NCBI GenBank assembly: GCA_016926135.1
Contig: JAFGPH010000018.1
Span: 1 to 34,077, forward strand
Length of the DNA: 34,077 bases
DNA from: Deltaproteobacteria bacterium
GTDB lineage: Bacteria; Desulfobacterota; DSM-4660; Desulfatiglandales; HGW-15
Direction: 5' to 3'
The translations under genes were made by a program, and so were the position numbers. This document shows positions 4,481-26,032 of the stretch, piece after piece; position 1 is the first letter of the stretch, and each line of letters starts with the position of its first letter. Below the pieces are notes generated by a model. It did no database searches, was not told the origin of the DNA, and saw only the letters and a list, made by a program, of their open reading frames with translations.

Positions 4481-6124
<1,644 letters not shown>

Positions 6125-6144
6125 TCGCGAATCGACCTCACAGA

Positions 6145-6184
6145 AAAATTTCGGGCAGGGGACCACCCTGCCCGATTCTTTTGT
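6145..6184. terminator. intrinsic terminator after groEL, probably bidirectional
   Basis: A perfect 9-bp stem (CGGGCAGGG at 6152-6160, CCCTGCCCG at 6166-6174) with a 5-base loop is followed on the plus strand by ATTCTTTT. On the minus strand it is followed by AAATTTTTC, so it can also end the histidine kinase transcript arriving from the other side. Confidence 0.85.
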
Positions 6185-6214
6185 GGCAGATTAATTGGGA
6201 GCAAGGAACCGATT

Positions 6215-7420
6215 TCAGGCAGCTTTGGCTTCTTTCTCCAGGATCTCCCTTACCTTGATCGAGAGGGATTGGACACCGAAAGGCTTCTGGAGGAAATCCT
6301 GTGCGCCCATGTCCAGGATCTCCCGAACCGATCTGTCCATGTCGTAGCCGCTGCAGAGCAGGACCTTGATGTGGGGTCGCGCCTCCCGCAGAAAGAGGTA
6401 TACATCCCTTGCCGTCATATCCGGGAGCTTGACGTCCAGGATGACCAGATCAATGCCTTCCTCAAGGTTCCCGACCTTGTTCACGGCTGCCGCACCCGTT
6501 TCTGCACCCAGAACACGAAAGCCCATCCTTTCCAGGATCTCTCGAAATATGGCCAGAACGGGAGCTTCATCCTCCACCACCATCACCGTCTGCCTTCCCT
6601 CGCCGAACCCGGCCTCCAACTCCATCTGGACAGGGGCACTGACACCCTCCGGAACAGGCAAATAAACCCTTACGGTCGTTCCCCTTCCCGGTTCGGACTC
6701 GATCCCTATCCACCCCTCATGGTTTCTGACGATGCCGTACACGGCGGCCATGCCAAGGCCACGGCCTATCCACTTTGTGGTGAAGAAGGGCTCAAAAACC
6801 CTGTTTCTCGTTTCCCTGTCCATACCCTCACCGGTATCCTCCACCTGGAGACAAACATATTTGCCGGGGATCAGGCCGCGGGGACCCGCGGCCTCGGCCT
6901 CCAGGCTTTCCTGCATCGTCGTTATCCTGATGAGGCCGGAACCCGCCATAGCCTCCTTTGAATTCTCCACGAGGGTGGACAGCACCATTTGCATCTGGGC
7001 CGGATCTGCAACCACCTGGGGAAGACCCGTTTCCAGATGCGTCTCCAGCAGGACAGCGGGTCCCAGTCCCGGCCTGATCTTGGCCAGGAATGTCTCCACC
7101 GACTCGTTCAGGGACACGGCCATGGGAAGGTACTTTCCACCCCTCGCATAGGCAAGCAATTGGTCCGTGAGCTGGGTCATCCTCCCCACGGCGGCCCTCA
7201 TGGATCGACTGTATTTGTCCACGACGGGATTGCCTGGAAGGTCCATGTTGAGCAGTTCTATATTCCCTGCGATCGCCACGAGGGCATTGTTGAACTGGTG
7301 AGCCACCCCGCCGGCCAGGGCGGCAACCGCCTCCAGTTCCTGGCTGTCTTGAAGACATGTCTCAGGGGCGTCCATCCTGAGACGTATCGTGTCACTCATG
7401 TCTTTAATTGACGCGACCAT
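6215..7420 (-). CDS. sensorless hybrid histidine kinase with C-terminal receiver domain
   Basis: This 401-aa cytoplasmic signalling protein autophosphorylates on a histidine and can pass the phosphate to its own receiver. The H box is GGVAHQFNNAL with H41. The ATPase domain shows the N box VENSKEAM (N153), G1 DTGEGM (D195), F box EPFFTTK and G2 GRGLGMAAV. After a linker (about 255-275) comes a receiver with acidic pair E283/D284, phospho-acceptor D329 (VILDVKLP) and K379 (KPF). There is no transmembrane segment and no PAS or GAF input domain; only about 30 residues precede the H box, so the signal must come from a partner. GGAGGAG precedes the ATG at 7420. No cognate DNA-binding regulator is adjacent. 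Confidence 0.92.
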   Translation of the reverse strand: MVASIKDMSDTIRLRMDAPETCLQDSQELEAVAALAGGVAHQFNNALVAIAGNIELLNMDLPGNPVVDKYSRSMRAAVGRMTQLTDQLLAYARGGKYLPMAVSLNESVETFLAKIRPGLGPAVLLETHLETGLPQVVADPAQMQMVLSTLVENSKEAMAGSGLIRITTMQESLEAEAAGPRGLIPGKYVCLQVEDTGEGMDRETRNRVFEPFFTTKWIGRGLGMAAVYGIVRNHEGWIGIESEPGRGTTVRVYLPVPEGVSAPVQMELEAGFGEGRQTVMVVEDEAPVLAIFREILERMGFRVLGAETGAAAVNKVGNLEEGIDLVILDVKLPDMTARDVYLFLREARPHIKVLLCSGYDMDRSVREILDMGAQDFLQKPFGVQSLSIKVREILEKEAKAA

Positions 7421-7896
7421 GACTCCTCCGGAAAGAGGTGCAATAGGAGAGGATCACCTTCACGTGCCGGGCCTGGATCGGTATCCATCGGGAAGGGCGG
7501 ACCGACATGCAAAACGCCAACGGGCTTCAAAAGGATTGCGGGGTTGGGTCGCTGAAACCTTTGTTTTGAGATTATTCGGGTTGTTTAGAAAAAAGCTCAG
7601 AGGATGTCAAAGCGGAATAGGGAAAAGGGCGACTTAGGATCGCTCCCCCGAGAAGAGACTCACAAATACCCATAAATGCTTCAAATTCTGACATATTCCC
7701 GCAACCAACTGGAATAAAAGGGAATTCGACGCAAAGCATTAATTAATAACTTCAATGTGTTATTCCTTCCGGGTCCTCCTCCAGGGGCATTTTAATGTAT
7801 CCATATCTCTACCTTTCTCTCATTTTCTTGGCCTTTCGGTCTTTTTCACTCAATGGGGTTTCCTTTTTCCCGTATCCGGGGCGGATTGTACCCAAT
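7421..7896. other. 476-base intergenic region upstream of the histidine kinase
   Basis: It contains the kinase promoter candidate (7582-7610) and a 160-base untranslated leader. Between 7611 and 7896 lies the 3' region of the bactofilin transcript; the short inverted repeat AATAAC/GTTATT (7745-7750 and 7759-7764) and a CCCG/CGGG pair near 7876-7887 lack U-tracts and are not convincing terminators. No gene is recognised. Confidence 0.5.
7582..7610 (-). promoter_or_regulatory. candidate promoter of the histidine kinase gene
   Basis: On the minus strand a perfect TTGACA (7605-7610) is followed after 17 bases by TAAACA (7582-7587), only three of six consensus bases. The -35 is convincing, the -10 weak. 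Confidence 0.4.
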
Positions 7897-8553
7897 TCAT
7901 TTCTTCGGCCTGAGCTCGAAATTCTGCCTGGTTGTGCCTTCCCCGGAAATATGGATCTTGTTCTTTTCCTTCTTATAGCCCTTTGCCTCGATCTTCAGTT
8001 TCCATTCCCCCTCTTTGAGGCTGATGAATTCGTAGTATCCTGATGCATTCGTTTCGATCTGCTTCTTCTCAGATCCCTTGCATTTGATCTTTGCATTCTT
8101 GACGGGTCTTCCCGACTCCTTGTCGGTCACGATACCGTAGATGGCCGTCAGCCCCACCGGAGGGCCGTCCTTGTATTCATCAGACCCGACGATGGGCGTG
8201 TCTCCTCCCTCAACGATCTCCCGTGCCCGATACATCCGGGTGTGCCCCTCGAAGATCACCCCCTCATCGATCACCACGGCGGGCGCCAGGATATTGCCGA
8301 AAACCTTGGCGGGCGCACGGAGGTCGGCCCGCTGATCGGCCACAATGTTTCCGTGGATCTCGCCGCTGACGACGACGTAAGAGACGTGCATGTCTCCTTC
8401 CACGAGGGCATCCTCACCCACGACCAGATTCCCGTCCGAGATAATTTCACCCTTGTAGTAGCCGTCAATCCTGAGGGTGCCCTCAAAACGGAGTTTCCCC
8501 TCAAACTCCGTATCCTTCCCCAGAAAGGTGATCTCCTTGTCCGCCCTTCTCAT
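7897..8553 (-). CDS. bactofilin fused to a carboxypeptidase regulatory-like domain
   Basis: This 218-aa protein starts with a bactofilin domain (about residues 5-115). Bactofilins are polymer-forming beta-helix cytoskeletal proteins involved in cell shape, envelope or polar organisation. The repeating short beta pattern is visible in FEGKLRFEGTLRIDGYYKGEI, VVGEDALVEGD, VVVSGEIHGNI and ADLRAPAKVFGNI. From about residue 137 a second domain begins, with AIYGIVTDKESGRPVKNAKIK, SGYYEFISLKEGEWKLKIEAKGY and a final beta strand, the pattern of a CarboxypepD_reg/transthyretin-like fold that is usually extracytoplasmic. No signal peptide is visible, so the second domain is probably cytosolic here. It follows the CNBD-HDOD gene by nine bases and is likely co-transcribed. 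Confidence 0.85.
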   Translation of the reverse strand: MRRADKEITFLGKDTEFEGKLRFEGTLRIDGYYKGEIISDGNLVVGEDALVEGDMHVSYVVVSGEIHGNIVADQRADLRAPAKVFGNILAPAVVIDEGVIFEGHTRMYRAREIVEGGDTPIVGSDEYKDGPPVGLTAIYGIVTDKESGRPVKNAKIKCKGSEKKQIETNASGYYEFISLKEGEWKLKIEAKGYKKEKNKIHISGEGTTRQNFELRPKK

Positions 8554-8562
8554 TGGTCTCTC

Positions 8563-9903
8563 TCATCCTTTCACACGACTCTTCAACAACTCCCTGAAGG
8601 CCACCGGCAGGGTTTCGATTCTCTTCGTAAGCGAGGGGTGGAGTTTCTCCTCCACAATGCTTGTCAGGTCGAGCCTTTCCCATCTGAATAACGTCGCGTA
8701 CTCTTCCAAATAAGGAGTGGGCATCTCCTCCACCGGCTTGCCCTGCAAGAAAGCATAGGCGAGATGTGCAAGGTAAAGGGTTGCCACAGGGATCCTCACG
8801 TCCAGAGGGGTACCCGACGGGGGCGAATACTCCGGGATGCACTGCGACTCCACGCTCTTCCAGACGAGATCCGGCAGATTCCATGTCCTGAGCAGGAGGG
8901 ATCCCATCTGGGAATGGTCCACACCTTCCAGGAGCACACTGATCTTGGGATTCTGTTCCTTGAGCAATTCCAGTACTCCCCGACCCAGGTCGTGGAGCAA
9001 CCCTATGGTCGCTGCCTGCGAGGGCTTCCCCACCCCGGAGGTTTGAGAGATCGCAAAGGATATCTGCGAAATGGCATTGGAGTGAGCGTGGAGTTCCCGG
9101 AAGACGGGCGTATCGGGCATGGTCCGACGGACGCCCTCGCTCACCAGAAGCTGGTGGATCTGGTTGAACCCCAAAAGAACCACGGCATGGTTGATATCAG
9201 AAATCTTCTTCTGAAAACCGTAATATGGGGAATTTACCGTTTTGAGGACAACCCCCACAAGGGAGGGATCCCCCTTGACCATGTCGGCGATCTCGGCGGC
9301 GGAAACCTCTTCCTCCAGAAGCTTGACCGCAAGGGAGCTGGCAAAAACGGGCAACTTCGGAATCTTCTTGAGCAGGGTCTGTACCGTCTCGGAACGACCA
9401 TAGTCGACCCTGGTCTGGATTCGACCCAGGACAAGGTTTTCCCGGAGCCTCCTGTTCTTGCCGGCCAGGTCCCGCTCCCTCAGTTCAAGGGATCGTATCC
9501 TCTCAAAGGCGAGATCGTTCAGGCGCTTGAAGAAAAAGAGCTGGGTCTTTTCCTCCAGGGCATCCAGGGTCGCCTTTTCGATCACCATGACCAAAGACGG
9601 CTTGTCCGCAATGGCTGATGCCGTCCTCGGGATCTTCCGGGTAAAGGCGATCTCCCCTATCCAACTGTCCCGCCCGAGTGTGGCGATCACTTCCTCTCCG
9701 TCCTGGACCTTCTTGACGACCCTCAGTTGCCCCTCCAGGACGATATACACAGTCTGGTCCGTGTCGCCCTCCCGGATGAGCACCTCGTCGGGCTGAAGCT
9801 TTCTGATCCTTGCCAGGCTGTACAACCTCTTCAGTTCAGCCTCGCTCAGGCCCTGAAACGAAGGAATCTGATGCTTACCCTCTTTGCTCTTCGTCTTTTC
9901 CAT
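8563..9903 (-). CDS. cyclic-nucleotide-binding domain plus HDOD domain signalling protein
   Basis: This 446-aa protein has an N-terminal Crp-type cNMP-binding domain (about 14-130; DEVLIREGDTDQTVYIVLEGQL, IGEIAFTRKIPRTASAIA) and a long HDOD domain (about 180-380; KLPVFASSLAVKLL, VVLKTVNSPYYGF, AVVLLGFNQIHQLL, GLLHDLGRGVLELL). HDOD proteins are regulatory relatives of HD phosphohydrolases found with two-component and c-di-GMP networks; they usually act as scaffolds rather than enzymes, although an HD pair is still visible in LLHDLG. There is no DNA-binding domain. GGGGGAGG precedes the ATG. Its operon partner is the bactofilin, suggesting signal-dependent control of a cytoskeletal or envelope process (inference). 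Confidence 0.9.
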   Translation of the reverse strand: MEKTKSKEGKHQIPSFQGLSEAELKRLYSLARIRKLQPDEVLIREGDTDQTVYIVLEGQLRVVKKVQDGEEVIATLGRDSWIGEIAFTRKIPRTASAIADKPSLVMVIEKATLDALEEKTQLFFFKRLNDLAFERIRSLELRERDLAGKNRRLRENLVLGRIQTRVDYGRSETVQTLLKKIPKLPVFASSLAVKLLEEEVSAAEIADMVKGDPSLVGVVLKTVNSPYYGFQKKISDINHAVVLLGFNQIHQLLVSEGVRRTMPDTPVFRELHAHSNAISQISFAISQTSGVGKPSQAATIGLLHDLGRGVLELLKEQNPKISVLLEGVDHSQMGSLLLRTWNLPDLVWKSVESQCIPEYSPPSGTPLDVRIPVATLYLAHLAYAFLQGKPVEEMPTPYLEEYATLFRWERLDLTSIVEEKLHPSLTKRIETLPVAFRELLKSRVKG

Positions 9904-9975
9904 AGTCGGCCTCCCCCAGGCATAGGAACGTCAACACCTTGTGCGTGAACAGAAGAGGTCTCTGGCCACCAGGAG

Positions 9976-10004
9976 CGTATACGACAGAAATGCTTTTTTG
10001 TCAA
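9976..10004 (-). promoter_or_regulatory. promoter of the CNBD-HDOD/bactofilin operon
   Basis: On the minus strand a perfect TTGACA (9999-10004) overlaps the stop codon of the RND pump gene. A 17-base spacer leads to TATACG (9976-9981, four of six consensus bases). This separates the operon from the upstream efflux genes. Confidence 0.6.
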
Positions 10005-13000
10005 TGGGTTGGGTCAACCGGAGCCCCGACCTGTTCTGCCCGCTCGCTTGGGAAGCGTTTCAGCAGGCCGTGCTGGAGCGAACATAGAACAGGAACGACC
10101 ACAAGCGTCAACAAGGTGGCAAAGGCAAGGCCGAAGATCACTGCAACGGCCATGGGTCCCCACCACTGGGATGACTCACCCCCGACGTCCCAGCTGAATT
10201 TTCGAAAGTCGAAGCTGACCCCGACCGCCATGGGAAGGAGCCCGAGGATGGTGGTGATCGCAGTCAGCATGACGGGGCGGAAGCGGACGAGTCCGGCCCT
10301 GATGAGGGCATCCCGGGAAGCGATGCCCCGTTCCAGAAGCTGGCCATAGTAATCGATCAAGACGATGGCATTGTTGACCACGACCCCGGCGAGGCTGATC
10401 ACACCGATACCGGTCATGATGACGCCAAAGGGGGTCCCGGTGACCAACAGCCCGAGGAAGACACCGTTCAGGGAAAAGATGACGGAAGCCATCACGATAA
10501 GCGGCGTCGTGAAGGAGTTGAACTGGGTCATGAGAATGATGAGGATGATGAATAGGGCGCCCACAAAGGCCTTGCTCAGGAATGCCTGGGCCTTCTCCTG
10601 CTCTCTCTGCTCGCCGGTGAAACGATAGCTATAGCCCCTGGGCCAGCCGGGTTCCTTGCTCAGGACAGCCTCGATATCCTTGATGATGTCATTGGCCAGT
10701 CTGCCTGAGACATCCCCGGTGATGGTCACCACCCTCTTCTGATCCAGCCGGATGATGGCACCTACCCCGCTTGTGACGGTGACTTCAGCCACACTGGTGA
10801 GCGGTATGGCCTCCCCCCGAGGACCGGATATGGTCACGCGCCTGAGGCCTTCTATGGATCTGCGGTCCTTTTCCGGGAGCCTGGCCAAGATATCGTACTC
10901 GTCCTTTCCTTCCCGGTAGACTCCGACCTTGGCCCCGTTGATGGCCGCCTTCACCGTGTATGCGATGGTGTAGGTATCGAGACCCAGGAGCGCTGCCTTT
11001 TCCTTGTCCACCCGGACCCGGATCTCGGGTTTCCCCTTGACGAAGTTGTCCCTCAGGTCCACCAGGCCCGGAACGTCCCTGATCTTGCCTCTGATCCTGG
11101 CTGCCAGTTCACCCAATACCAGGATGTCCTTGCCGGAGATCTCGAGATTCACAGGGGGGCCGGTGGGCGGACCCTCTTCCTCCTTTTCCACCTGGACCTC
11201 TGCCCCCCGGATGATTCTGAGCAACCGCTGCCGGACCTCCCTGATGATCCCCGAGGAAGATCGTGAGCGATGATGGAGTTCCTTGAAATCCAGCACTACC
11301 CGGTTGATGTGGGTCCCGGTCCCTCCCTGGGAAAAGGGATCTCCTCCCACGGAGCCGATGTTGGAGATGACGTATCGGATGTCCGGGTATTCGGACACGA
11401 CCTTCTCCACCTGGGTTACCAGGGCATCGGAGGCATCCAGGTTCATCCCCTCCGGCCCCTTGATGTGGACATAAGCCCGCTTGGGCTCCACGTCAGGAAA
11501 GAACTCGACCCCTTTTCCGAAACGACCGAACGCGAGGATTGAGCCGATCAGGAGGACGATGCATACGGCCATCACCAGAAGACGATGCCCCAGGGACCAG
11601 GTCAGGAGCCGGAGATAGATCCTCTTTACCAAGGGCTCCCTGCCGGTGGACTCCTGACCGCCCTCCTTTTTTTTCGCCCTCTGGAAGCGGGCCGAGAGCA
11701 CCGGGTTGATGACCAGGGCCACAAAAAGCGATGCCGAGAGTGCCATGATCACGGTCTCCGGGAGAAAGAACATGAATTCCCCCATGATGCCGGGCCAGAA
11801 AAGGATGGGAAAGAACGCCCCCAAGGTGGTCAGGGTGGAGGTGATGACCGGCCAGGCGACCTGATTCGTGGCGATCAGGGCCGCATCTTCCCGGGACTTT
11901 CCCTCCTGCATGTGACGGTAGATGTTCTCCACGATGACGATGCCGTTGTCCACCAGCATGCCGAGGGCCAGGGTGAGCGAGAAGAGAACCACCATGTTCA
12001 GGGTCACTTCGAAGCCGGAGAGCAGTGTGAAGGTGATGAGCATGGAATAGGGAATGGCCAGGGAGATGAATACGGCGGACTGGCCGTTGATGAACGCAAA
12101 GATCACCATGAGGACCAGGAGGAGTCCCGTAATGATGTTATTCTCGAGATCCGAGACCATGAGCCGCACATCCTCGGACATGTCGGAGGTGAGATCGATC
12201 CGCAGGGAAGGCGGCAATTGCTCTCTCATCTCCCTTACCGCGACCTTCACCTCGTCCGTGATGCGCACGATGTTCTCGCCGCTCCGTTTGATCACCGCCA
12301 GGGTAATGCTCTGCCGCCCGTTGAGCCGGCTCCTCGTAAGAGGATCCTTGTAGCTGTCGTTGATGGTGGCCACGTCCCTCAGGTACACCGGCTTCCCGTC
12401 CCTGACAAAGGCCACGATGGAAAAGATCTCCGAGGGGTGTTTGAAATCCTCAGGTACCCTGACCAGGTACTTGGCCTCCCCGATGTCCATGCTGCCGCCG
12501 GGCATGTTGACGTTGCCGCGAACCACTGATTGGATCAGGCTGGAAAAAGGCACATTGTAGGCCGCCACCCGGTCCAGGTCGAATTCCACCTGGATCGCCC
12601 GCTCGATCCCGCCGGTGAGCCTGGCCTCCAGCACCCCTGGAACAGATTCGATCCTGTCCTGCAGGTCCTCGGCGAAGCTCTGGAGTCGCCGGAGGCTGAA
12701 GGGTCCGGAAATCACCACCCGGATGACCGGGATGTCCGAGAAATTCACCTCCTTGATCACCGGATCGTCCTGAAGATCGCCAGGCAGGTCCGCCTTGGCC
12801 TGGTCCACCTTGTCCCGGACCTTTTGCAGGGCGTCGTCAATGTCCACACCGGCCAGGAATTTCACCGCCACGGTAGACAGGCCCTCCGCCGAGGTGGAAC
12901 GGATTTCCTCCAGATCCGAGATCCCCTTGAGCTTTCGCTCGATGGGGATGGTGATCAATTTCTCCATGTCCTCCGGCGCCACCCCTTCGTATGTGGTGGT

Positions 13001-14965: not shown

Positions 14966-16834
14966 TTACTCCTCGTTCTCAAAGCAGCGCCAGACCCTCA
15001 GGATCCCGTCTTCCTGGATATCCGCCTGATACCGTCCCTTCTTCGCGAAGGTCTTCAGCATGGGCACGTTGTGTTCGAAAAGGTATCCCACGGCCCCTTT
15101 GAATCCCATACGGCGCGCATAGCGTTCCAGGTGGGTCTGAAGAAGGGTACCCAGTCCCAGTTTCTGGTAATCCTCGTGGGTGGTATAGGCCACTTCGACC
15201 ATGCCTGAATGCTCATTTTCGGCAGCGTACCGGCCCACGGCGATGATCCGCTCAATGCCGATTTCCCCCAGGGTGGCCACAAAGGCCATGCGGTTTCGAT
15301 AGTCCAGATTCACCATGGTCTGGGCCGTGGCATGAGGCATGCTCCGGATGCTGCGAAAGTATCGGAGGTAGACGGTCTCCTCCGAATGGGAGTAGAAGAA
15401 ATCCTGAAGTTGCACTTCATCCGTGGGCTTGATGGGCCTGATGTGGACGGATGTGCCGTTCGAAAGGGTCACCGTGGTTTCCTCCTCCTCGGGGTAGGTG
15501 ATGTTCTCCGTATGGATGAGGATCTGATCCGGATAGATATAGGCTTGCCTCTTGGCCTCTTCCAGGAGCCCCTTTCGAAACCTCGGGTGGGCGATGTTGA
15601 TGAGGGCCATGGCCCTTTCCCTCACCGTCTTCCCGTGGAGGTAGGCGATTCCGTATTCGGTCACCACGTACTTCACATCACCCCTTGTCACCACCACCCC
15701 CGCCCCTTCCTGGAGATTGGCCACAATCCTGGACCTCTCCCCGTCCTTGGTGGTTGACGGGAGGGTGATGGCGGACTTTCCCCCTTTGGACATGGCTGCA
15801 CCCCGGATGAAATCCAGCCTTCCCCCGATGCCGCTGTAGAAATGGTGTCCCTTGGACTCCGAGCAGATCTGCCCGCTGAGGTCCACCTCCAGGGCGCTCC
15901 CGATAGAGACCAGGTGATCGTTCTGCGCAATCTGCAAGGGGTTGTAAACCCTCTCCGCCGGATAGAAGGCGATCCGGGGGTTGTCCCTGACATAGTCGTA
16001 GATCCTCCGGGTTCCAATGCAGAAACTGCATACTACCTTGCCGGGAAGGAGGGTCTTGCGCTCCCCCGTGAAGACCCCCTCTTCGATCAGATCAATGAAG
16101 TCATCCGAAATGACCTCCGTGTGGACGCCGAGGGCCTTTTTATCCCCGACGAATTTCAAGACACCATACGGGATATGCCCGTAACCCACATGGAGCGTGT
16201 CGCCGTCATTGATGAGCTTGGCCGCATTCCTGCCGATGTTCCTTCCCACCTCGTCAAGCTCTGGGTAGCGAAACTCCAGCAGGGGGTCGTCCTTCTCCAC
16301 GATATGGTGAATCTTCTCCACGGAGATAAAGGTGTCCCCCAGGGTTCGGGGCATGAAGCGGTTCACCTGGGCGATGAGCACCCTTGCCGATTCGGCCGCA
16401 GCCTTCACGATGTCCACAGAGATCCCGAGGCTCACGAACCCGTGACGGTCGGGTGTTGAGGTCTGAATCAGGGCAACGTCTATGGGTACGATCCTGCTAC
16501 GAAAGAGATCGGGAATCTCGGAGATAAAGACGGGCGTGTAGTCGGCCCTGGCCTGGTTGATAGCATCCCGGGTCGTAGGTCCCACGAAAAAGGCATTGTG
16601 ACGAAAGCGGTTGTCAAAGCGCTCCTCGGTATAGGGCGCCTCTCCCAGGGTGACAAAATGCAGGATCTGAACGTCGTGCAGCCTGCTGCCGCGCTCGATG
16701 AGGCCTTGCACCAGATAGCCCGGCTCTGCGCAGGCGGTTCCAAGAAATACCTTGGAGCCCCTTTTGACGGATTTCAGGGCGTTCTCCAAAGTCGTCTTTC
16801 TCTCATGGTATAACTCTTCCCATCGCTTTGTCAT
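14966..16834 (-). CDS. acetyl-CoA hydrolase/transferase family protein fused to a GNAT acetyltransferase
   Basis: This 622-aa protein joins two enzymes. Residues of about 10-450 are a class I CoA-transferase of the acetyl-CoA hydrolase/4-hydroxybutyrate CoA-transferase type, which moves CoA between carboxylic acids. Family blocks include GTACAEPGYLVQGL, GYGHIPYGVL, LGVHTEVISD (E240 matches the catalytic glutamate position), GSALEVDLSGQICSES and GIGGRLDFIRGA. Residues of about 464-605 form a GNAT domain (SVHIRPIKPTDE, YQKLGLGTLLQTHL, FLFEHN-like end), which could acetylate a lysine or small molecule. The start at 16834 is chosen because GGAGGTGAGG precedes it; an in-frame ATG at 16891 lies inside the terminator hairpin. 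The upstream leader suggests attenuation control. Acyl substrate unknown. Confidence 0.9.
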   Translation of the reverse strand: MTKRWEELYHERKTTLENALKSVKRGSKVFLGTACAEPGYLVQGLIERGSRLHDVQILHFVTLGEAPYTEERFDNRFRHNAFFVGPTTRDAINQARADYTPVFISEIPDLFRSRIVPIDVALIQTSTPDRHGFVSLGISVDIVKAAAESARVLIAQVNRFMPRTLGDTFISVEKIHHIVEKDDPLLEFRYPELDEVGRNIGRNAAKLINDGDTLHVGYGHIPYGVLKFVGDKKALGVHTEVISDDFIDLIEEGVFTGERKTLLPGKVVCSFCIGTRRIYDYVRDNPRIAFYPAERVYNPLQIAQNDHLVSIGSALEVDLSGQICSESKGHHFYSGIGGRLDFIRGAAMSKGGKSAITLPSTTKDGERSRIVANLQEGAGVVVTRGDVKYVVTEYGIAYLHGKTVRERAMALINIAHPRFRKGLLEEAKRQAYIYPDQILIHTENITYPEEEETTVTLSNGTSVHIRPIKPTDEVQLQDFFYSHSEETVYLRYFRSIRSMPHATAQTMVNLDYRNRMAFVATLGEIGIERIIAVGRYAAENEHSGMVEVAYTTHEDYQKLGLGTLLQTHLERYARRMGFKGAVGYLFEHNVPMLKTFAKKGRYQADIQEDGILRVWRCFENEE

Positions 16835-16882
16835 CCTATCCTCACCTCCAAATGCCTCTATGAAGAGGTGCACTGCGTTCCC

Positions 16883-16921
16883 AAAAACCAAGAGGCCATG
16901 AGCTTTTCGCCCATGGCCTCT
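16883..16921 (-). terminator. intrinsic terminator in the leader of the CoA-transferase/GNAT gene
   Basis: Read on the minus strand, AGAGGCCATG pairs with CATGGCCTCT over ten bases, extended inside by a GC/GC pair past one mismatch, with a GAAAA-type loop. It is followed by TTGGTTTTT. It ends 48 bases before the start codon, between the leader peptide and the gene, so it is placed as an attenuator terminator. It could alternatively end transcripts of the upstream cNMP/PilZ gene. Confidence 0.75.
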
Positions 16922-16947
16922 GATCGTTCGATCCCTGAAGGGGGGGA

Positions 16948-17070
16948 TTATCCGCCTCCTCCGGGCCCCGACCAGCGGGCCACGGCCAAGGTAAAGTAAT
17001 AACCCCGCCCTGCAACATTCATAATGTATCCATATGTCTCGTTTCGCGTCATCCGATTCGTCCTATCCAT
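16948..17070 (-). CDS. candidate aromatic-rich leader peptide of an attenuator
   Basis: A short frame of 40 codons runs from an ATG at 17070, with further in-frame ATGs at 17052 and 17022, to a TAA at 16948-16950. It is rich in aromatic residues: Y13, Y15, then the run Tyr-Tyr-Phe (codons at 17001-16993) and a Trp (16974-16972), ending in Pro-Gly-Gly-Gly-Gly. The bases that follow Tyr-Tyr-Phe (minus strand CCGTGGCC, 16985-16978) can pair over eight bases, one of them G-U, with GGCCATGG in the 5' arm of the terminator. Thus a ribosome stalled at the Tyr codons would favour antitermination. AAGGT lies upstream of the 17070 ATG. The coding claim rests on architecture, not on homology; the start choice is uncertain. 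Confidence 0.55.
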   Translation of the reverse strand: MDRTNRMTRNETYGYIMNVAGRGYYFTLAVARWSGPGGGG

Positions 17071-17098
17071 ACCCGAAGGACCTTGAGGATCTTCGGTG

Positions 17099-17127
17099 TT
17101 TCTACTCCTGAAACCCTGTCCTGTCAA
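17099..17127 (-). promoter_or_regulatory. promoter of the leader/CoA-transferase transcript
   Basis: On the minus strand a perfect TTGACA (17122-17127), 17 bases, then TAGAAA (17099-17104, four of six consensus bases). Transcription would begin near 17092, about 22 bases before the leader peptide ATG. A small hairpin, CCGAAG/CTTCGG (17073-17078, 17091-17096), sits at the start of the transcript. Confidence 0.6.
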
Positions 17128-17155
17128 CCTCTCTTTTTCCCGGCATCCTCTCCGC

Positions 17156-17851
17156 TTATTCCTTGTTGATCATAAGCTCCCGGAGATATCTCTTGAAGAC
17201 CTGATCATCCTTCGGGCTCATCTGCATGAACGTGATTCCCATACCTGCGGGACCTGCCTCACCCTGTCCCCCGGGCTTCCTAGTCCAGGCCACCTGACAC
17301 TGGATCATGAGGGAGTCCGGGATGTCCGGGAGTTGAAGCTTCAATTGAAATTTCTCCCCCTTGGCTAGGGGTTTCTCCGTCTTGATGAAAAGACCGCCGA
17401 GACTGACATTGACCGTGTACGCCTTCACAAAAGACTGGCGATCCTTGTATGCGAGGGAGAGCGTATTCGGGAGACGGGGGTCCATCCGGTAGGAAGTCTC
17501 GGATATCTGGTCGATCATCTTCTTGAATCTCTTGACGACCGCCACCAGAATGGATCTGAAGTCGGTGGAGAGCTTGTTGAATTCATGGTCCAGGAAGGTC
17601 CGATCGATCACCCCCAGGGTTGTCTCCCCCTCGGCCCGGGCTCCAGCCGTCCTCCTGATCCCTCCCAGGAACCCAAGCTCCCCGAAGACCTCTCCCTCCT
17701 TCAGCACCTCGATGACGACCTCCCTCCCCTCCACGCTCTTGGTGATCTCCACCGATCCCGAAAGGATGATGTAGACCCAATCCCCCGGGCTACCCTCCCT
17801 GAAGATCAACTGGCCATCCGAGTAAGTCTCTTCCGAGGCAACGGTATGCAT
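17156..17851 (-). CDS. cNMP-binding domain plus PilZ domain protein
   Basis: This 231-aa cytoplasmic protein combines a Crp-type cyclic-nucleotide-binding domain (about 8-110; GQLIFREGSPGDWVYIILSG, GEVFGELGFLGGIRRTAGA) with a C-terminal PilZ-type domain (about 118-228; NVSLGGLFIKTEKPL, QCQVAWTRK, GMGITFMQM). PilZ domains often bind c-di-GMP using an RxxxR motif and D/NxSxxG. The NxSxxG part is present, but upstream only DRQSFVK is seen, so the second arginine is missing, as in many PilZ-like domains that do not bind the nucleotide. No DNA-binding domain follows. It could integrate a cyclic-nucleotide signal with motility or surface functions (inference). It has its own promoter. Confidence 0.88.
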   Translation of the reverse strand: MHTVASEETYSDGQLIFREGSPGDWVYIILSGSVEITKSVEGREVVIEVLKEGEVFGELGFLGGIRRTAGARAEGETTLGVIDRTFLDHEFNKLSTDFRSILVAVVKRFKKMIDQISETSYRMDPRLPNTLSLAYKDRQSFVKAYTVNVSLGGLFIKTEKPLAKGEKFQLKLQLPDIPDSLMIQCQVAWTRKPGGQGEAGPAGMGITFMQMSPKDDQVFKRYLRELMINKE

Positions 17852-25754: not shown

Positions 25755-25814
25755 CCCCATTTTCATCCACGGAAATCCTGTGGGAGCCTCGTTCCACGGA
25801 GACTGCCACCCAGC

Positions 25815-25997
25815 ATCCAGGCAGGTCTTCTGACTTCCCCGCCCTTCCGGCAGCCTTCCCATTCCTGGTACGGGCAACAGTGGCGTTTCACGGCCGAAAG
25901 GGTTCCCTTTCACCTTGTCAGGCAAAAGGGCGGGGTTACAGCGGCGGGTCCGTCCCCGACTTACACGGGGTTCCCTATTAAGCAACTGCACCTGGAT
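25815..25997 (-). ncRNA. cobalamin (adenosylcobalamin-type) riboswitch
   Basis: The minus strand contains the B12 box AGTCAGAAGACCTGCCTG (near 25819-25836) and the other conserved core pieces: AATAGGGAA, GGGACGGACCCGCCGCTGTAA, GTGAAACGCCACTG and GGGAAGG. The ends pair as P1 (ATCCAGG at 25997-25991 with CCTGGAT at 25821-25815). It is followed by a strong terminator and then by a TonB-dependent receptor gene, the classic arrangement for repression by cobalamin. Confidence 0.95.
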
Positions 25998-26003
25998 AAG
26001 GGT

Positions 26004-26032
26004 ACGCTAGGCGAAAAGCCTTAGCCTGTCAA
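26004..26032 (-). promoter_or_regulatory. promoter of the cobalamin uptake operon
   Basis: On the minus strand TTGACA (26027-26032), 17 bases, then TAGCGT (26004-26009, three of six consensus bases). Transcription would start near 25997, exactly at the first base of the riboswitch P1 stem, which supports the assignment despite the weak -10. Confidence 0.6.

Follow-up and report, generated by a model that had tools for sequence, protein, structure and literature searches.

The enterobacterial phe (pheL-pheA) and trp (trpL) attenuators have a leader peptide in which the sensed amino acids are abundant, and an intrinsic terminator before the regulated gene. The principle of ribosome-mediated attenuation is stated in PMC3766115, which, in the part available to us, describes the amino acid attenuators studied as mostly preceding biosynthesis genes and Phe attenuators as lying outside Rfam at that time. 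We analyzed a stretch of 34,077 nucleotides of deltaproteobacterial DNA (the window) in which such a leader stands before a gene for a CoA-transferase fused to a GNAT domain. The mechanism is of the classical phe/trp type and the target is new. We count the target as new because Rfam 15 gave no match at positions 16800-17200 up to E 1, and because we found no description, in literature outside subscription, of an attenuator before a CoA-transferase or of aromatic leaders in Deltaproteobacteria. The literature searched likewise yielded no described member of the 4-hydroxybutyrate CoA-transferase family with amino acid attenuation, and the part of PMC2965389 available to us holds nothing on these genes. 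For 16 other leader loci, the sole Rfam 15 match was a weak one, at 36 bits versus a gathering score of 100, and the sRNA family concerned is unrelated; the Rfam leader families were rejected as candidates for lack of a match.

The leader region, on the minus strand, is flanked by a cNMP-binding/PilZ gene and the CoA-transferase/GNAT gene and is composed as follows:

17156-17851, minus strand: gene for a cNMP-binding and PilZ protein, 5' of the leader
17099-17127, minus strand: promoter-like site read from the sequence, TTGACA (17127-17122), a 17-base spacer and TAGAAA (17104-17099)
16948-17070, minus strand: leader reading frame of 40 codons, MDRTNRMTRNETYGYIMNVAGRGYYFTLAVARWSGPGGGG, ending with a stop
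16993-17001, minus strand: putative sensing codons Tyr-Tyr-Phe (TAT-TAC-TTT)
16955-16991, minus strand: protector hairpin (segment 1:2) directly 3' of the aromatic codons, a predicted fold
16978-16985, minus strand: segment 2, the antiterminator strand, CCGTGGCC, from the sequence and a pairing computation
16909-16918, minus strand: segment 3, GGCCATGGGC, in the terminator 5' arm, the partner of segment 2
16882-16921, minus strand: intrinsic terminator with a 13-pair stem, a 5-base loop and the tail TTGGTTTTT
14966-16834, minus strand: gene for the CoA-transferase with a Pat-like GNAT domain, from domain search and structure matches

The Tyr-Tyr-Phe codons are followed, in this order, by CCGTGGCC, the stop, the terminator and the CoA-transferase/GNAT gene. 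The start of the leader frame is ambiguous, with in-frame ATGs at 17070, 17052 and 17022, the last two of which would give a shorter frame. A first reading of the letters alone (the sequence-only reading) had already pointed to the promoter, the short frame with Tyr-Tyr-Phe, the hairpin before the gene at 16834 and the segment able to pair with it, and we recovered all of these parts. The frame was confirmed at 16948-17070, the stem (16921-16891) counts 13 pairs, 8 of them G-C, where 10 had been noted, and the computation reproduced the pairing of segment 2 with the terminator 5' arm, inside which GGCCATGG occupies 16918-16911. The promoter-like site is readable at 17127-17099, with a weak -10 (4/6 consensus matches), and is absent from the list given by a promoter scan of the region. 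A gene for a cNMP-binding and PilZ protein also lies 5' of the leader in genomes G001 and G072, and a gene for a TIGR02266 (PilZ-type) protein does so in G002. The window further contains a cobalamin riboswitch (RF00174, 91.5 bits; 25803-26010, minus strand), ahead of the frame 25809-23641 and near a FecCD/ABC and TonB/ExbBD cluster.

From this arrangement, we infer translation of the frame, stalling and readthrough. With ample Phe and Tyr, the ribosome would pass the aromatic codons, and segment 2 would be covered or held in the protector hairpin, so that the terminator could form and transcription would stop ahead of the CoA-transferase gene. If charged Phe- or Tyr-tRNA ran short, the ribosome would stall on the aromatic run, covering the protector hairpin's 5' arm; segment 2 would then pair with the terminator 5' arm, and the CoA-transferase gene would be transcribed.

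Taken alone, the window provides modest evidence against chance. Runs of at least three Tyr/Phe codons appeared, in any frame, in 41/2000 dinucleotide shuffles of the 89-base leader piece, the antiterminator pairing was matched in strength by 5/300 shuffles, and the leader folded better than 200/200 shuffles. Terminator-like sites in the region showed no excess (1 observed versus a shuffle mean of 1.0). The recurrence of the leader among orthologues is weightier than these single-window statistics.

Relatives were gathered through the downstream protein alone, and L058 (in G080) through a covariance model; protein clusters at 67% identity or more number roughly 80. The same layout was found in 5/5 full or long orthologues (72-80% identity) and in L058: a run of Phe/Tyr codons is followed, after 7-9 bases, by a segment that complements the terminator 5' arm, and then come a stop and a terminator. 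The equivalent frames are given below with the identity of the protein to that of the window, the aromatic run, the distance from the last Phe/Tyr codon to segment 2 and the leader peptide:

Window: YYF; 7 bases; ..GRGYYFTLAVARWSGPGGGG
L001: 80%; FFYF; 7 bases; ..CGFFYFIRLPAAGRSWTGGGG
L002: 75%; YFYF; 8 bases; ..RGYFYFRKLPWPGAGGGA
L011: 78%; YFYCFF; 7 bases; MPASATTYFYCFFSTPWPRAGGGG
L012: 72%; FFYFY; 9 bases; ..YGFFYFYGLLCPWPGGG
L013: 74%; FFYFY; 9 bases; ..EVFFYFYADPCPWQGGG
L058: 76%, over a 132-residue contig-end piece; FYYF; 8 bases; ..TNFYYFCTLPWPGAGGGA

The seven peptides have in common their aromatic character and the stretch whose codons coincide with the RNA segments; the remainder is unlike. 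Given the size of its footprint, a ribosome stalled on the aromatic run would extend forward by about these 7-9 bases. A hairpin right behind the aromatic codons was predicted in all six leaders that were folded, with a different sequence in each. Aromatic runs were present in 6/6 CoA-transferase leaders tested (Fisher p 0.0007 versus shuffles, any frame), three U-rich leaders being uninformative singly, as 696, 315, and 230 of their 2000 shuffles yielded an aromatic run. The antiterminator strength of the seven leaders was reached by 5, 4, 31, 13, 1, 0, and 8 of 300 shuffles.

In a protein tree of 26 rows (with L058 present in 21% of the columns, L013 truncated by its contig, and long branches for L007 and L024), the seven leader-bearing genes formed one clade with support of 99/97. 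Leader presence on this tree amounted to one change, and 0/500 label shuffles gave a number as low. No leader was found, by scan or by covariance model, in the 11 orthologues of 60-71% identity (the scan covered 420 bases upstream, 217 in L038). The 41-49% homologues L005 and L014-L024 and the 34-36% homologues L006-L008, when read, showed none either. In L035, which is sister to the leader clade, there is a frame rich in Phe (DFFFAFSFRPP), near which we looked for a terminator and found none, and the short frame of L015 (NWYFYYKRS) likewise has no terminator. TTGACA occurs 117-122 bases before the leader anchor only in the window, L011 and L058 (3/7); L001 and L002 are without a TTGACA promoter, and their leaders, close behind the PilZ stop, may be read from upstream.

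We built a covariance model from six CoA-transferase leaders and searched 85 genomes of the class, 53 of which gave some match. The top six matches (94-105 bits) were all CoA-transferase leaders, five of the model's own and a seventh. Further matches scored 22-48 bits in these genomes and up to 56 bits in a phylum sample, and the weak ones are not all leaders, some being the other hairpin strand, trp-type or frameless. From 38 loci (L059-L082 and L119-L132), we left out the trp-type L065, L069 and L079 and read 35, in 31 of which an aromatic frame was present. L089 stayed outside the analysis, and L134 entered it through a list of its frames alone. Classified by gene start, the genes behind these 35 non-CoA-transferase loci were shikimate kinase-like (14), DAHP synthase-like (5), DhnA-type aldolase-like (3), MBL-fold (3), aminotransferase (2) and AMP-ligase (1), and seven were unclear or false. 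In samples, family scans confirmed shikimate kinase, chorismate synthase, DAHP synthase, aldolase, aminotransferase and CM-PDT, as well as the MBL-fold and ligase genes. Most genes read behind the attenuator class serve Phe/Tyr supply, and many of its leaders read ..NQSWQGFYFYFYGRGLPMD up to the stop, with TCTGCCCATGG set against CCGTGGGCAGA. Genomes with the CoA-transferase leader are among those carrying class leaders on aromatic genes: before aroK-aroC-DAHP synthase in G072, before aroK-aroC and before a DhnA-type aldolase in G057, and before aldolase-pheA in G028, with another aromatic leader and terminator after the first. Therefore, the same switch is apparently common to aromatic biosynthesis and the CoA-transferase. 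The model also matched ahead of trpE in G028 and, in G057, behind a frame rich in Trp.

In each of the seven CoA-transferase leaders, segment 2 and the terminator 5' arm could form 8-11 pairs, with an internal mismatch in L001, and one base of segment 3 varies among them. For a comparison of own with swapped pairing partners, 38 leaders were collected (7 CoA-transferase, 20 of L059-L082, 5 from L083-L088 and 6/14 from the phylum sample). The script found no hairpin or run in four of them (L083, L088 twice and L122), which were dropped. For four of the 34 leaders retained (L011, L121, L080 and L075), we placed the end of the aromatic run manually. Across these 34 class leaders, with relatedness left in, own partners paired at a mean of -22.8 versus -20.5 kcal/mol for swapped ones, and 0/2000 permutations reached the own-partner pairing; the shuffle scores of class leaders are biased upward, because the leaders were picked by a model containing segments 2 and 3. 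The seven CoA-transferase leaders alone showed no excess (1368/5040 permutations reached the own pairing), because the terminator arm is nearly invariant there. Covariation holds for the class, kinship included, and not inside the CoA-transferase clade alone. The sequence-only reading had named loss of the frame or of the competing pairs among relatives as its refutation; the comparison did not refute it, and aromatic run, spacing, segment 2 and terminator are kept in 7/7 leaders of the clade.

Given the recurrence of the class, the competing pairs and the aro targets, we therefore conclude that an unexpected target, the CoA-transferase/GNAT gene of the window, is very probably controlled by a ribosome-mediated transcription attenuator with Phe-tRNA and Tyr-tRNA as its signals, a member of a class common to shikimate/prephenate genes. 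The trp/phe-type attenuation proposed from the letters is supported, the same class standing before aro/phe genes in the same genomes.

Several loci deserve a description of their own. At L085 (G028:C1, ~9640-10140, minus strand), tandem aromatic leaders, ..WEGWNFYFWGCGGLPMD with its stop and MNQFWFHYWRGPPVAL.., each followed by a terminator-like hairpin, stand ahead of the aldolase-pheA operon. The trp-type leaders (NWWWR.., WLWWR..) of L065, L069, L079 and L088 (10571-10691, plus strand) apparently have two tandem intrinsic terminators. Genomes G394, G429, G357 and G275 (L119, L121, L122 and L131) carry Phe/Tyr leaders before DAHP synthase-like genes and have their own CoA-transferase orthologue without a leader. 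At L135 (G078:C123, 4105-7492), the aromatic leader LYYYFYYFYGRGLLMV is followed by an MBL-fold gene, then by a BadF-type ATPase and a 2-hydroxyglutaryl-CoA dehydratase component, which makes it another acyl-CoA operon behind the Phe/Tyr attenuator class. Aromatic leaders also precede MBL-fold genes at L136 (G077:C61, 4220-7500, minus strand) and L137 (G015, 6033-8800, minus strand); at L136, the MBL-fold gene is followed by a 3-hydroxyacyl-CoA dehydrogenase/enoyl-CoA hydratase, and the antiterminator pairing of the leader (L071) is weak, being reached by 56/300 shuffles.

We then considered the enzymes. The window protein has the N and C domains of the acetyl-CoA hydrolase/transferase family (PF02550, 125.6 bits, and PF13336, 208.2 bits), both over the curated cut-offs, and contains a GNAT domain too. 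Its best equivalog, TIGR03948, remains far below the cut-off (280.3 versus 674.8 bits). The nearest solved kin are 4-hydroxybutyrate CoA-transferases, and the best matches are 4-hydroxybutyrate and butyryl-CoA:acetate CoA-transferases. No aromatic pathway gene was found among the scanned neighbors of the CoA-transferase/GNAT genes; an EPSP-synthase-family gene close by in G028 was rejected as a candidate, since it is MurA. A family III CoA-transferase also has the class leader, in G001 (..QGFFFFSFRNG..) and, as an orthologue, in G065 (..QTFFFSFRKWSA..). The model detected leaders at 2/5 family III loci, the query's own included; L141 was positive by aromatic frame only, and L140 and L142 showed no leader by model or aromatic frame. 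In the G001 leader (L138, G001:C54, ~1270-1465), the possible extra pairing segments TCTGCCC, GGGCAG, CTGCCCATG and CCATGGG stand between the frame and the terminator, as if one more switch step had been inserted.

An AMP-forming ligase in G073 is preceded by a class leader with six Tyr codons, and 1/20 ligase loci fetched, out of matches in 55 genomes, has a leader. In 5/6 leader-bearing genomes (G001, G002, G028, G072 and G080), 54-224 bases separate the ligase orthologue from a match to the alpha subunit of indolepyruvate oxidoreductase (IOR). The adjoining IOR alpha is over the family cut-off in four of these, the match in G002 being partial and under it; the ligase frame of G072 holds a stop, and in G057 ligase and IOR are on different contigs. 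IOR alpha was found over the cut-off in 6/6 leader-bearing genomes searched versus 2/14 control genomes. At the IOR loci, which reach 1500 bases upstream and end short of the start of the ligase-IOR operon, the model found a leader in 0/20 (best E 0.51), and the aromatic-frame scan, covering 18/20, found none either. A genome-wide model search of six genomes gave no match on the ligase-IOR contigs, and the window CoA-transferase is not adjacent to IOR in the loci read. From its place in the genome, the ligase may act on arylacetates. PMC13285125, in the part available to us, places a Bacteroides IOR beside an arylacetate-CoA ligase and gives this IOR a possible role in making aromatic amino acids, as is the case in methanogens.

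Could the parts of the leader have been misread? The PilZ gene ends at 17156 and runs in the same direction as the CoA-transferase gene, so the hairpin might be its terminator, the short frame a product of chance and the CoA-transferase promoter further down. A PilZ-type gene also lies 5' of the leader in G001, G002 and G072, the -10 is weak, and the count of terminator-like sites in the region does not exceed shuffles. However, the same leader and terminator follow a ComEC-like gene in G028, with no PilZ gene at that place, which led us to reject this account, and an aromatic run with segment 2 recurs in 7/7 leaders belonging to a class that serves aro genes; we consider it extremely improbable. 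The sequence-only reading had left room for an arrest peptide, whose nascent chain would stall on a small molecule (e.g., acyl-CoA or an aryl acid) and not at empty Phe/Tyr codons. This would suit a target that is no classical biosynthesis gene and the Gly-rich tail (GGGG, GGGA or GGG) that ends 7/7 leaders, but most aro leaders read have the same RNA layout without a Gly tail (ends such as GLPMD before the stop). Apart from Phe/Tyr and the tail overlapping the RNA, the peptides show no alignment, and Phe and Tyr interchange freely (YYF, FFYF, YFYF and FFYFY). We disfavor the arrest peptide, and rejected it, because the peptide is unconserved beyond "aromatic" and the RNA-encoded tail, and we regard it as very unlikely. 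A TGG codon also follows the Phe/Tyr run in 7/7 leaders, but in five it lies inside segment 2 itself (CCGTGG or CCATGG), and in the other two, the window and L001, it comes further down. Stalling of a ribosome at this codon would mask segment 2 and promote termination, and the trp-type leaders of these genomes have Trp clusters (NWWWR, WLWWR). Because TGG belongs to the RNA segment in 5/7 leaders, Trp is probably not a sensed residue, and we rejected additional Trp sensing, to which we give next to no weight.

With the attenuator taken as real, Phe/Tyr scarcity might act as a growth signal for an acetate/fatty acid CoA-transferase, or the GNAT might be the regulated activity, a view whose chances of being right we put at about even. 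It agrees with the short-chain best matches of the window enzyme, the lack of an aromatic gene among scanned neighbors, the IOR loci without a leader, and the presence of the class before MBL-fold genes, one with a BadF-type ATPase and a 2-hydroxyacyl-CoA dehydratase component downstream and another followed by a 3-hydroxyacyl-CoA dehydrogenase/enoyl-CoA hydratase. Yet three unrelated kinds of CoA-activating enzyme (CoA-transferase/GNAT, family III CoA-transferase and AMP-ligase) stand behind the class, and ligase orthologues pair with IOR. Because of these CoA-activating enzymes, the ligase-IOR adjacency and the Bacteroides precedent, the data suggest that the window enzyme feeds aryl-CoA to IOR. 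Aryl acids (e.g., phenylacetate) would be converted into aryl-CoA, and Phe and Tyr would be salvaged by IOR working in reverse. That the control serves aryl acid activation for such salvage is a possibility we put forward tentatively and with more doubt than confidence. Desulfatiglandales-like anaerobes might then, with the same reservation, possess a salvage regulon in which arylacetate-activating CoA-transferases and ligases are placed under shikimate's Phe/Tyr attenuator class. In that regulon, aryl-CoA would be reductively carboxylated by IOR, and the window enzyme could perhaps be an acyl-CoA:arylacetate CoA-transferase of unassigned kind. Against salvage, 0/20 IOR loci and 1/20 ligase loci have a leader, the ligase-IOR contigs of the six genomes gave no model match, the scanned neighbors include no aromatic pathway gene, 11/11 more distant orthologues are leaderless, and the sequence kin are short-chain CoA-transferases. 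The link between aromatic supply and acyl-CoA metabolism, a hint in the sequence-only reading, is sharpened, still as a hypothesis.

Few clues to gene function are as specific as an amino acid attenuator, since its codons name the signal. The Phe/Tyr-sensing leader would tie the unassigned CoA-transferase/GNAT family, the family III CoA-transferase and the IOR-linked ligase to Phe/Tyr supply and offers a substrate clue (arylacetates) for enzymes commonly labelled "acetyl-CoA hydrolase" or "acyl-CoA hydrolase." It also brings to notice the class of Phe/Tyr attenuators found in these anaerobes.

Like pheL-pheA and trpL, the window leader has aromatic codons, competing protector, antiterminator and terminator structures and a terminator just before the gene; unlike them, it mixes Phe and Tyr and precedes a CoA-transferase/GNAT fusion, which is no amino acid biosynthesis enzyme. 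The CoA-transferase leaders share with the aro/phe class leaders (aroK-aroC, DAHP synthase and aldolase-pheA) the core TGCCC[AG]TGG with CC[AG]TGGGC or close variants, as well as the segment order, and one covariance model finds both. What sets them apart is a Gly tail, often PW..GGG, where the others have GLPMD-like ends, together with their model scores (94-105 bits versus 22-56 bits for other class leaders). As with the Bacteroides arylacetate-CoA ligase and IOR described in the part of PMC13285125 available to us, the AMP-ligase adjoins IOR in 5/6 leader-bearing genomes, whereas the window enzyme departs from that module in being a CoA-transferase that is not next to IOR in the loci read. 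In its domain make-up and its match to solved structures, the window enzyme resembles the 4-hydroxybutyrate CoA-transferase family with a Pat-like GNAT domain.
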